From Selenomonadales bacterium (lineage in GTDB: Bacteria; Bacillota; Negativicutes; Sporomusales; UBA7701): a stretch of DNA of 64,000 bases. The stretch is taken from assembly GCA_029975165.1 (NCBI GenBank), contig JARKPR010000033.1, positions 1-64,000 on the forward strand. Reading direction: 5' to 3'. Of the stretch, positions 48,922 through 53,311 are shown piece by piece. Position numbers and translations under genes: made by a program. Below the pieces are notes generated by a model. It was not told where the DNA came from. It searched no databases and worked only from the letters and a program-made list of their open reading frames with translations. The stretch's first letter is position 1. Each line of letters begins with the position of its first letter.

Positions 48922-50010
48922 ATGAAAATCGCCAGCTACGGCTTAGCCATGCAAAGCAGCCACAGCCTCATCGAGCAGGACGCAAAACACGAATCCCTGC
49001 GGCTGTGGACCGGTAACCGAACGGCCGTGCGCGCCGTGCGCACGCCGCTCGCTCAGATCGTCGCCAACCTCAAACAAGACAGCGTCCAAATCTCCGCCGC
49101 CGCCCGCCGCCAGCAACAACTGCAGCTCAGGCAGCTCAGCTCCGCCCCCGCCGACAGCGCCGCCGCCTTCGAACTCAGCGACGCCGACAAGGCCAAGCTC
49201 CAGCTCATCCAGGACTTCATCGAAGCCCTCACCGGCAAAAAAATCCGCTTCGTCTTACCCGATGACGGCAAAGTCAAGCTCCAAATCGCCGCCGACCGGA
49301 TAACCCTCCGCCTGAGCGGCCAGACCATCTCCCAGCCGCGCCCCGACTGGGGCCTGGCCTACGACTTCCACCAATCCCACTACGAAGCCGAGCAGACCAC
49401 CTTCGCCGCCGCCGGCTTCGTCAAAACCGCCGACGGCCGCGAAATCGACTTCTCCGTCGCCTTCGCCGCCAGCCGCCAGTACAGCACCGAAACCAACGTC
49501 AGCATCCGGGCCGGCGCCGCCCTCACCGACCCCCTCGTCATCAACTTCGCCGTCCCCACCGCCAGCCTCACCGCCGCCAAATACGCCTTCGACCTCGACG
49601 CCGACGGCGACAACGAACAAATCTCCTTCCTCGGCCAGGGCAGCGGCTTTCTCGCCCTCGACAAAAACGGCGACGGCGTCGTCAACGACGGCAGCGAACT
49701 CTTCGGCCCGCAAAGCGGCAACGGCTTCGCCGACCTCGCCGCCTACGACGCCGACGGCAACAACTGGATTGACGAAAACGACCCCATCTACCAAAGCCTT
49801 GTCATCTGGACCAAAGACGAAAACGGCAACGACCGCCTCTTCACCCTCGGCCAAAAAGGCGTCGGCGCCATCTACCTCGGCAACGTCGCCACCGACTTCA
49901 GCTACAAAAACAACGCCAACCAGCTCCAAGGCCAGCTCAGAACCAGCGGCGTCTTCCTCCGCGAGGATGGGGGAGTGGGGACCGTCCAACAAATCGACCT
50001 CGCCGTCTAG
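48922..50010 (+). CDS. VCBS/EF-hand-like calcium-binding protein at the flagellar locus
   Basis: A 362-residue protein without signal peptide. The N-terminal 120 residues are helical (IVANLKQDSVQISAAARRQQ). The middle is beta-rich and similar to a domain often found next to flagellar genes. The C-terminal part holds three acidic loops of DxDxDG type: FDLDADGDNEQ, LDKNGDGVVNDGSELFG and YDADGNNWIDENDPI. It closes with RLFTLGQKGVGAIYLGNVAT and FLREDGGVGTVQQIDLAV. The acidic loops predict calcium binding. The lack of a signal peptide and the place after fliT suggest cytoplasmic use or export by the flagellar route. Its role is unknown. Confidence 0.8.
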   Translation: MKIASYGLAMQSSHSLIEQDAKHESLRLWTGNRTAVRAVRTPLAQIVANLKQDSVQISAAARRQQQLQLRQLSSAPADSAAAFELSDADKAKLQLIQDFIEALTGKKIRFVLPDDGKVKLQIAADRITLRLSGQTISQPRPDWGLAYDFHQSHYEAEQTTFAAAGFVKTADGREIDFSVAFAASRQYSTETNVSIRAGAALTDPLVINFAVPTASLTAAKYAFDLDADGDNEQISFLGQGSGFLALDKNGDGVVNDGSELFGPQSGNGFADLAAYDADGNNWIDENDPIYQSLVIWTKDENGNDRLFTLGQKGVGAIYLGNVATDFSYKNNANQLQGQLRTSGVFLREDGGVGTVQQIDLAV

Positions 50011-50193: not shown

Positions 50194-50883
50194 CTACCTG
50201 TTGGCGGGGCAGACCTGGCGGCATTGCCAGCACTGCAGCACCGCGAAGCCGCGCGGCAGCTTTGTCCAGCAGTGACGCCGGCAGGCGTCCTGATTGACCG
50301 TGCGATCGCCATTGATGGCCTTTGCGGGACAAGACTCCACACATAACCGGCACCCGGCCGGGCATAGCTCATCGCTGACAAGCGGATCGGGTTCGACCGG
50401 TAAAGCGGTGATAACCGAAACGAGATTAACCTTATTCCCATATCGGGGAGTGATCAACAGCGAATTTTTCCCCATCACCCCCAAACCGGCGGCAACGGCC
50501 GCATGCTTATGCGACAAATCCCCTGCCGCATACCCTTTTTCCTCATCCCAACGAAAGTACGGGGTCATCGCCGGTACCGGGATAGTATCGGCCGCGAACT
50601 GGTCCTCGATAAAACGCGCCAAATAATAAGCATCACCATCCAGGCGGCCGATATTCCCCTCATGGACGGCAGTATAACTTGTCCAGTGATTATTTACCAT
50701 CGGCCCGGCCAGACATCTCCGGGCCAACACCACGACCGAGCGCGCCGCCGGCATAATATCGGCAGGCTTGTGGCCCTGCGGCGCCGCCGCGAATCTCTCG
50801 ACCGGCGCGACCCCTATCAAGTCAATACCTAACCCCTTCGCTACCTGCGCTAACCTCGCTCTTGCCTTCGACGCCGGCAACAC
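50194..50883 (-). CDS. QueG-like double [4Fe-4S] cluster protein
   Basis: A 229-residue protein related to epoxyqueuosine reductase and corrinoid-linked ferredoxins. The N-terminal half resembles the cobalamin-binding part (GIDLIGVAPVERF, SVVVLARRCL). The central AAVAAGLGVMGKNSLLITPR is conserved in QueG. The C-terminus carries cysteines for two clusters (CPAGCRLCVESCPAKAI, and CWQCRQVCPANR). It is shorter than QueG, which is usually above 300 residues and has a HEAT-like tail, so it may serve another reductive role. GTG 50883 lies nine bases after AGGAG; ATG 50889 is an alternative. A TATAAT stands at 50913-50908. Confidence 0.75.
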   Translation of the reverse strand: MLPASKARARLAQVAKGLGIDLIGVAPVERFAAAPQGHKPADIMPAARSVVVLARRCLAGPMVNNHWTSYTAVHEGNIGRLDGDAYYLARFIEDQFAADTIPVPAMTPYFRWDEEKGYAAGDLSHKHAAVAAGLGVMGKNSLLITPRYGNKVNLVSVITALPVEPDPLVSDELCPAGCRLCVESCPAKAINGDRTVNQDACRRHCWTKLPRGFAVLQCWQCRQVCPANR

Positions 50884-50892
50884 GGCCATCAA

Positions 50893-51055: not shown

Positions 51056-51085
51056 TTGCTTTTTTTTGTCACCGTCAATTATAAT
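51056..51085 (+). promoter_or_regulatory. Housekeeping-type promoter of the structured RNA
   Basis: TTGCTT (51056-51061) and a perfect TATAAT (51080-51085) stand 18 bases apart, in a T-rich stretch. Transcription would start near 51092, ten bases before the RNA closing stem. Confidence 0.75.
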
Positions 51086-51101
51086 TTGGTTAAAGAACCT
51101 T

Positions 51102-51321
51102 TTGCTTAGGTCTGTGGTTGAAAATCGATGCCAGTCGCAGGCGAAACGATCCACGTAAGGGGTCAAAAGAGACTCTGAGCATGGTGCGGCTTAGAAGTAA
51201 GCCCTGCCGGCGGGCGCTATAGGCGCAACGGCCGAGAGAAGCAGTAGTGAGGGGATTGAATTCCTAGTAGCGAACCTTCCAGCAGGCGGGTGTGGGGGAA
51301 AAGACCAGGTCGGCTAAGCAA
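51102..51321 (+). ncRNA. Structured RNA of about 220 nt upstream of a zinc-ribbon gene (raiA-motif candidate)
   Basis: The ends pair perfectly: TTGCTTAG (51102-51109) with CTAAGCAA (51314-51321). Inside, GTGG and ATCG (51114-51127) pair with CGAT and CCAC near 51149-51156. GGCTT-AGAA-GTAAGCC (near 51189-51204) forms a T-loop-like hairpin, and GCGC-TATAG-GCGC (near 51216-51228) a further one. No reading frame uses this stretch. Size, closed architecture and position 1.4 kb before hpf/raiA are consistent with the raiA-motif RNA of Firmicutes, but I could not compare with its consensus, so that name is a guess. Confidence 0.6.
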
Positions 51322-51358
51322 TGGTCCTTTAAGTCTGAAGGTGAGGGGATTTCGAGTA

Positions 51359-51652
51359 ATGGCTTTCCAGGACAAGACATTAAAGTGCAAGGACTGCGGG
51401 GGTGACTTCGTCTTCACGGCCGGCGAGCAGGAATTCTACGCCGAAAAGGGCTTCGAAAACGAGCCGGCCCGCTGCCGCGAATGCCGCGATGCACGCAGGC
51501 GCGGCCGCGAGGGCGGCGACGCCAGGGCCCCGCGGGAAATGCACGAAGCCGTCTGTGCCGAATGCGGCGTGACCACTCAGGTACCCTTCAAACCGCGCAA
51601 CGATCGTCCCATATACTGCCGCGAATGCTTTGCCGCCAAAAAACAGAGCTGA
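51359..51652 (+). CDS. Zinc-ribbon domain protein
   Basis: A 97-residue protein from ATG 51359 (GAGGGG upstream). The first half is a treble-clef or zinc-ribbon domain (LKCKDCGGDFVFTAGEQEFY, then ARCRECRDARRR), and a second CxxC pair follows (CAECGVTT, YCRECF). This protein type is widespread in Firmicutes and many environmental bacteria, often near cold-shock genes. The middle is Arg/Gly-rich and may bind nucleic acid. The gene lies in the same transcript as the structured RNA. Its function is unknown. Confidence 0.85.
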   Translation: MAFQDKTLKCKDCGGDFVFTAGEQEFYAEKGFENEPARCRECRDARRRGREGGDARAPREMHEAVCAECGVTTQVPFKPRNDRPIYCRECFAAKKQS

Positions 51653-51670: not shown

Positions 51671-51698
51671 GCCCGGAATTCATTCCGGGCTTTATTTT
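51671..51698 (+). terminator. Terminator after the zinc-ribbon gene
   Basis: GCCCGGAA (51671-51678) pairs with TTCCGGGC (51683-51690), followed by TTTATTTT. Confidence 0.85.
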
Positions 51699-52141: not shown

Positions 52142-52345
52142 GTGAACTTCGACATCGGACTCATCGTCCGCGCCGCCCCCCTCCTCCTGGCCGGCGCGTC
52201 CTCACCGTCCAGACCACCGCCCCCCAGCGTCGGCTTTGGCCGCAGAAGGCCCGTCCGGGCAGAGCTTCGCCGCCGCCCGCGAACCGCGCCCCCGGGCCTT
52301 CCTGTGCAAGATACCGCAGTCCTCATCGGCGGCTGCCTTCGTTGA
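52142..52345 (+). pseudogene. Possible relic of a polar amino-acid ABC permease N-terminus
   Basis: GTG 52142 starts VNFDIGLIVRAAPLLLAGA, which resembles the first 20 residues of GlnP/HisM-type permeases. After the next base the expected VLTVQTTA continues in another frame, then the similarity fades. The remaining frame to 52345 is low-complexity and ends at the cold-shock promoter. Only a fragment is left. The identity rests on a short match. Confidence 0.3.
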
Positions 52346-52370
52346 CACATCTATCCAGGTGTGCTATATT
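52342..52370 (+). promoter_or_regulatory. Strong promoter of the cold-shock gene
   Basis: Perfect TTGACA (52342-52347), 17-base spacer, TATATT (52365-52370). The leader is about 50 bases. Confidence 0.8.
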
Positions 52371-52748: not shown

Positions 52749-52783
52749 AATATTATTAAGATTCTGGAAGGGAGATGAGGTCT

Positions 52784-53311
52784 GTGGCAATAACCGTACG
52801 AGGCAAGAACATCGATATCACACCACCTCTGAAGGACTACGTCGAAAAACGCGTCGGCAAGATCGCCAAATACTTCGAAACCCTGGGCGAGATTACCGTA
52901 GTCCTCACCGTCGCCAAAGGACGCCATATCGTCGAAGTGACCGTGCCCCTCAACGGCATGCTGCTCCGCGGCGAAGAATCGACCACCGATATGTACACCT
53001 CGATCGACCTCGTCATAGAAAAACTGGAAAGACAGATCGAAAAATATAAGACCAAGCTGGCCCGCAAGCTCAAGACCGGCACCTTCAAAGGCGACATCGG
53101 CAGCGCGGCCCGCGACACCGGCGACGACGAATTCCGCATCGTCAAAACCAAGCGGTTCGCCGTCAAGCCCATGACAACCGAAGAAGCCGTAATGCAGATG
53201 AACCTCATCAACCACGACTTCTACGTCTTTACCAACGCCGAAACCGAAGAAGTCAACGTCATCTACCGGCGCAAAGACGGCGGCTACGGCCTCATCGAAC
53301 CCGAATTCTAG
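52784..53311 (+). CDS. hpf: Ribosome hibernation promoting factor, long form
   Basis: Long HPF (RaiA/YvyD) joins two 70S ribosomes into inactive 100S dimers in stationary phase. The 175-residue protein has the N-terminal ribosome-binding domain (RGKNIDITPPLKDYVEKRVG) and the C-terminal dimerisation domain (RIVKTKRFAVKPMTTEEAVM, NLINHDFYVFTNAETEEVNV, IYRRKDGGYGLIEP). GTG 52784 is preferred because GGAAGGGAG lies about nine bases upstream and family members start at this point; ATG 52775 touches the ribosome site. secA and prfB follow as in other Firmicutes. Confidence 0.94.
   Translation: MAITVRGKNIDITPPLKDYVEKRVGKIAKYFETLGEITVVLTVAKGRHIVEVTVPLNGMLLRGEESTTDMYTSIDLVIEKLERQIEKYKTKLARKLKTGTFKGDIGSAARDTGDDEFRIVKTKRFAVKPMTTEEAVMQMNLINHDFYVFTNAETEEVNVIYRRKDGGYGLIEPEF

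Follow-up and report, generated by a model that had tools for sequence, protein, structure and literature searches.

The window analysed here, a stretch of 64,000 nucleotides, carries a full-length RNA of the raiA-motif (ModT) family followed closely by a gene for a small double zinc-finger protein. The explanation that we favour, with a probability of roughly 0.7, is that the zinc-finger mRNA begins with this raiA/ModT RNA, which is sealed by an additional outer helix (P0 hereafter) and acts in trans on the growth transition and sporulation. The RNA itself is an ordinary full-length member of the known family; what goes beyond that family is the linkage to the zinc-finger gene, P0, and a shortened natural form, mini-raiA.

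Identification and distribution of the RNA

A cmscan comparison of the whole window with Rfam 15 produced a single match at the curated threshold, RF03072 (raiA RNA), at positions 51101-51322 of the forward strand (192.2 bits against a cut-off of 101.3, E = 3.3e-49, model positions 1-209). An earlier note on this DNA had called for such a search and had tentatively suggested a raiA-motif RNA at 51102-51321; the guess was right, with coordinates correct to one base, and the match spans the full model and is present in one copy in the 4.19-Mb genome. The elements of the locus are as follows.

51056-51061 and 51080-51085, forward: sigma-A type promoter predicted from sequence (TTGCTT, 18-nt spacer, TATAAT)
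51092-51099, forward: 5' strand of P0, AAAGAACC, at the predicted 5' end of the transcript; one A.C mismatch with its partner 51323-51330
51101-51322, forward: raiA-motif (ModT) RNA, full length (RF03072 match; covariation in 55 relatives)
51323-51330, forward: 3' strand of P0, GGTCCTTT, ten bases before the ribosome-binding site
51340-51348, forward: ribosome-binding site, GGTGAGGGG, near-invariant among linked relatives
51359-51652, forward: zinc-finger (double treble-clef) gene, 97 aa (PF13451 and PF23477/TIGR04272)
51671-51690, forward: predicted intrinsic terminator 3' of the zinc-finger gene, followed by T's (sequence scan)
52775-53311, forward: hpf/raiA gene, the namesake neighbour (PF02482/TIGR00741)

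At E <= 0.001, the RNA was detected in 181 of 300 genomes of the class (177 above the cut-off), in 34 of 299 genomes of the phylum (25 above the cut-off) and in none of the 14 control genomes. Three of the RNAs (L092, L093 and L094) are 165-183 nt long, with much of the P7-P8 region apparently absent.

Conserved fold

By itself, the folding energy of the RNA is not significant (z = -1.4; 20 of 200 shuffled sequences fold equally well) and was rejected as proof of structure, so that the structural case rests on homology and covariation. The known fold was transferred to window coordinates and evaluated on an alignment of 55 full-length relatives.

51102-51109, 51112-51114 and 51115-51119, forward: 5' strands of P1a, P1b and P1c, with partners in 51303-51307 and 51311-51321 (covariation)
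51124-51150, forward: P3 hairpin, with P3a 51124-51127/51147-51150 and P3b 51130-51132/51140-51142 (conserved fold)
51133-51139, forward: P3 loop, the 5' half of pk-1 (conserved fold)
51185-51191, forward: 3' half of pk-1, seven pairs with 51133-51139
51203-51286, forward: P6, 51203-51207/51282-51286, enclosing P7 and P8 (conserved fold)
51239-51241/51276-51278 and 51252-51256/51260-51264, forward: P7 and P8, respectively (conserved fold)

Under this fold, 95.0% of the cells of the alignment are paired (87.1% after shuffling), 27 pairs show two-sided change (19.3 after shuffling) and so do 241 cells (68.1 after shuffling); no shuffle attains these values, and sliding the partners abolishes the signal. 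Helices P1 and P3-P7 are paired in 93-100% of the cells, mostly with two-sided changes, and P8 as written is poorly kept (59%). The closing helix of eight perfect pairs described in the earlier note, on the conservation of which the proposal of a folded RNA had been made to depend, is real: it is exactly P1a (51102-51109 with 51314-51321), and the stem covaries strongly, with two-sided changes at 9 of the 11 P1a/P1b pairs among the relatives. The pk-1 helix, which is also present in the cryo-EM structure (PMC11751092), is paired in 99.2% of the cells, with C-G replaced by U-A in 11 relatives. A T-loop-like hairpin that had been read at 51188-51203 (GGCTT-AGAA-GTAAGCC) does not hold up as an element of the fold: two single pairs are broken in 11 and 15 of the 55 sequences, respectively, and, because these pairs are broken in relatives while pk-1 covaries, the GGCTT strand belongs to pk-1.

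Promoter and transcription unit

The strong promoter previously placed with its end at 51085 corresponds to a perfect TATAAT, and each of 45 zinc-finger-linked loci has a -10 element upstream of the RNA that matches in at least five of six positions, at a distance of 12-19 nt in 44 of them; the assignment derives from sequence. The TTGCTT hexamer matches the consensus at only three of six positions, which is why a generic promoter scan missed this promoter. Transcription is predicted to start near 51092. The surroundings with csp, hpf and secA are as had been described, and hpf, reported at 1.4 kb from the RNA, lies at a measured distance of 1.45 kb. Because csp has a promoter-like site of its own at 52342-52370 and hpf is this far away, hpf lies outside the unit of the RNA on present evidence and is probably transcribed separately from the RNA and the zinc-finger gene. 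Upstream of the RNA, 50194-50892 on the reverse strand encodes a short 4Fe-4S protein of 232 aa that is similar to the C-terminal portion of QueG (51 bits, under the family cut-off of 200), and 48922-50010 on the forward strand, after fliT-like genes, encodes a 362-aa protein with no Pfam or NCBIfam match.

Linkage to a zinc-finger gene

The zinc-ribbon gene, mentioned in the earlier note only in its title, is real and, beyond what was claimed there, is the most constant neighbour of the RNA in this lineage. Counting distinct loci from the flanks of relatives, we found a gene for a PF13451/TIGR04272 treble-clef protein 3' of the RNA in 46 loci from about 25 families (by our family handles, 19 within the class and 6 outside). 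The spacing between RNA and gene ranges from 34 to 68 nt, with a median of 37 nt and 45 of the 46 loci at 34-45 nt, and this narrow range is kept across phylum-level distances. None of the 46 linked loci has an intrinsic terminator between RNA and gene; among the loci without the zinc-finger gene, a terminator lies within 90 nt of the RNA in 17 of 39 distinct cases. The window RNA shares with the RF03072 family the full-length match, P1, P3-P7, pk-1, the sigma-A promoter, the single copy and the nearby hpf gene, but differs from it in having no comFC directly upstream, in the co-directional zinc-finger gene that starts 38 nt behind it without a terminator, and in P0, which lies outside the Rfam model.

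The raiA/ModT RNAs are among the most abundant and intricate bacterial RNAs, and their neighbourhood had been judged uninformative: published surveys, as quoted by later papers, give comFC upstream in 74% and raiA downstream in 66% of cases and describe the synteny as uninformative and the orientation as variable. The parts of the raiA/ModT literature covered by our search do not mention the zinc-finger gene, and an earlier mention of the gene or of short forms elsewhere in it is possible. A conserved unit with one zinc-finger protein, together with a natural half-size RNA, offers concrete and cheap tests of RNA-protein binding and of expression control.

The linkage could also be devoid of function, a promoter shared by history and joint inheritance, and we regard this as a real possibility, if short of probable. 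On a tree of 90 zinc-finger proteins, which rests on few columns and has weak basal support (74/89), the linked proteins look vertically inherited, and the labels full, mini, remnant and none cluster strongly (14 changes against 41.9 when shuffled); moreover, RNA and gene are separable. Such a history accounts poorly for the spacing of 34-45 nt maintained over phylum-level distances without a terminator between, and for the conservation of the mini-raiA core described below. The separability is seen in two families. In one (f18), the gene is present and the RNA absent, and since this family nests within the RNA-linked side of the tree, the RNA was probably lost there; in the other (f30), the RNA is present and the gene absent. 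An obligatory RNA-protein pair is thereby rejected; the linkage is optional in both directions, so the function of the RNA does not require the protein. The presence of a zinc-finger gene was likewise rejected as a marker of the RNA because the protein family is multicopy, with four genes in this genome, and is distributed far more widely than the RNA.

An RNA-protein partnership, in which the zinc-finger protein binds the co-transcribed RNA for stability, localisation or feedback, appears distinctly unlikely to us. It would fit the constant linkage, the small size of the protein with its two predicted zinc-binding treble clefs, and the in-vivo probing in C. difficile that hints at protein association of ModT (PMC11706538). 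The precedent of OLE RNA and OapA, quoted in the same paper, is a works-like comparison only: in both cases a large structured RNA is set beside a small protein partner, but the RNA fold and the protein are unrelated, and the partnership in the window is putative. The families in which either component occurs by itself, and a multicopy protein family whose distribution greatly exceeds that of the RNA, speak against it. A PDB sequence search with the zinc-finger protein returned only eukaryotic zinc-finger proteins with weak scores. At one locus (L128), the RNA is missing and the zinc-finger gene is directly preceded by an apparent comF-type gene.

The outer helix P0

In 28 non-redundant linked loci, P0 duplexes average -6.8 kcal/mol with their own partners, whereas permuting the partners gives -4.6 kcal/mol and none of 5000 permutations reaches the observed value; this is support and not proof because the permutation leaves relatedness in. 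At unlinked loci, the effect is weaker (-3.6 against -2.4; 1 of 5000), and the P0 stretch often overlaps the -10 box. Sequestration of the ribosome-binding site by the 5' strand of P0, through ACCUU/AAGGU pairing, was considered and rejected, being possible in the genus of the window and absent outside the class.

Mini-raiA and remnants

In Thermosediminibacterales (Thermosediminibacter, Fervidicola, Thermovorax, Tepidanaerobacter and relatives; loci L096-L098, L100, L113, L131-L133, L171-L182, L183-L190 and L202-L212), we identified a raiA form of 113-120 nt, mini-raiA, which scores 42-59 bits and hence falls under the Rfam cut-off. Among 22 genomes of the order, a model built from 12 sequences detects it in 20, with a single copy in each and only a fragment in one. 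Mini-raiA retains the promoter, P1, P3 and a pk-1-compatible strand (GCCG/CGGC pairing, by sequence), is devoid of the P6-P8 part and of most of the invariant nucleotides, and always precedes the same PF13451/TIGR04272 zinc-finger gene with the same ribosome site. The two core strands (P1-P3) have mean pairwise identities of 0.92 and 0.95, values favoured by the fact that the sequences were found partly through this core, against 0.56 for the middle hairpins; in the gene behind, third codon positions stand at 0.59, and first and second positions at 0.94. The core identity is thus far above that of the middle hairpins and of third codon positions, indicating that the core is conserved like the protein and is not drifting; covariation of the core pairs is uninformative as the core is nearly invariant. 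Shorter, progressively decayed raiA remnants precede the zinc-finger gene at four further loci (L134, L103, L169 and L167), and at another (L104) just the promoter and the ribosome site are left.

These observations bear on the reading of the RNA, or of P1-P3, as a cis-acting leader that controls the zinc-finger gene, as a riboswitch or by sensing a protein, with or without a role in trans, which we hold to be rather unlikely. The fixed spacing of 34-45 nt, the lack of a terminator before the gene, the end of P0 just upstream of the ribosome site and mini-raiA, in which most of the invariant trans core is gone but P1-P3 is still 92-95% identical before the same gene, would be expected of such a leader. 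A constant position before one kind of gene, as in riboswitches, is found in about 25 families, but not in the families that lack an adjacent zinc-finger gene, where the RNA nonetheless persists. No conserved expression platform was detected: a terminator is found in 0 of 46 linked loci, and a pairing that could sequester the ribosome site is seen in the window's genus, with no counterpart in relatives outside the class. Furthermore, trans action of ModT has been shown in two Clostridia (PMC11706538). The clearest hint that P1-P3 acts for or with the zinc-finger gene is the conserved core of mini-raiA in front of it. A more specific version, which we consider unlikely, is that P1-P3 forms a separable module linked to this gene, through control in cis, binding of the protein, or both, and that mini-raiA is this module alone; if so, the orphan ModT would gain its first direct gene or protein partner. 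All these readings concern the link to the gene and are compatible with a trans-acting RNA, so that the confidence we place in them overlaps with that in the preferred explanation.

A tentative model and its relation to ModT

In the preferred explanation, the sigma-A promoter of the RNA would drive a short two-gene unit, with the RNA in front and the small double zinc-finger protein behind, which would end at the terminator at 51671. The RNA would fold into a compact domain of P1-P8 and pk-1, the two ends of which P0 would seal some 10 nt before the ribosome-binding site; a stable RNA, released from the zinc-finger mRNA or accumulating beside it, would then affect, in trans, both sporulation and the passage from growth into stationary phase. 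The explanation is supported by the RF03072 match, the covariation, the conserved promoter, the 46 linked loci without a terminator, all of them direct observations, and the terminator behind the gene; from these, we infer co-transcription with the zinc-finger gene and release of the RNA. The action in trans and the growth-phase and sporulation phenotype are ascribed to this member by analogy. For raiA/ModT, solved structures and knockout phenotypes have been published (PMC11706538, PMC11751092): ModT is abundant and stable, complements in trans and can be replaced by orthologues from other families, with trans action and growth-phase and sporulation phenotypes in C. difficile and C. acetobutylicum (PMC11706538).

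Several points weigh against the trans-acting explanation. The data on trans action and phenotypes are all from Clostridia, a group in which the RNA is frequently followed by a terminator of its own. A transcript continuous with a coding sequence would be equally expected of a cis-acting leader, and RF03072 is still typed as cis-regulatory in Rfam.

The C. difficile ModT, a member of the same family for which short and long forms have been described, carries a 3' extension that is an intrinsic terminator (PMC11706538), whereas transcription in the window can continue into the coding sequence.

A second leader before paralogous zinc-finger genes

Among the three further copies of the zinc-finger gene in this genome, two paralogues outside the window (L217 at C99:103884 and L218 at C99:13124) are preceded by a different conserved, structured leader of about 110 nt, which is also present in relatives (L220-L246) and has no match in Rfam. 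Its CTTCTCA segment has two possible partners, a downstream GGGAAG/GAGAAG and the ribosome site TTTGAGGAGG, the two pairings being mutually exclusive, and pairs of the CCCRA/TYGGG type seem to covary. Of 150 genomes of the class, 23 carry the leader pattern, compared with one match for a control pattern. The zinc-finger gene follows 24 of the 26 distinct leaders, and we consider this element a candidate cis-regulatory RNA.
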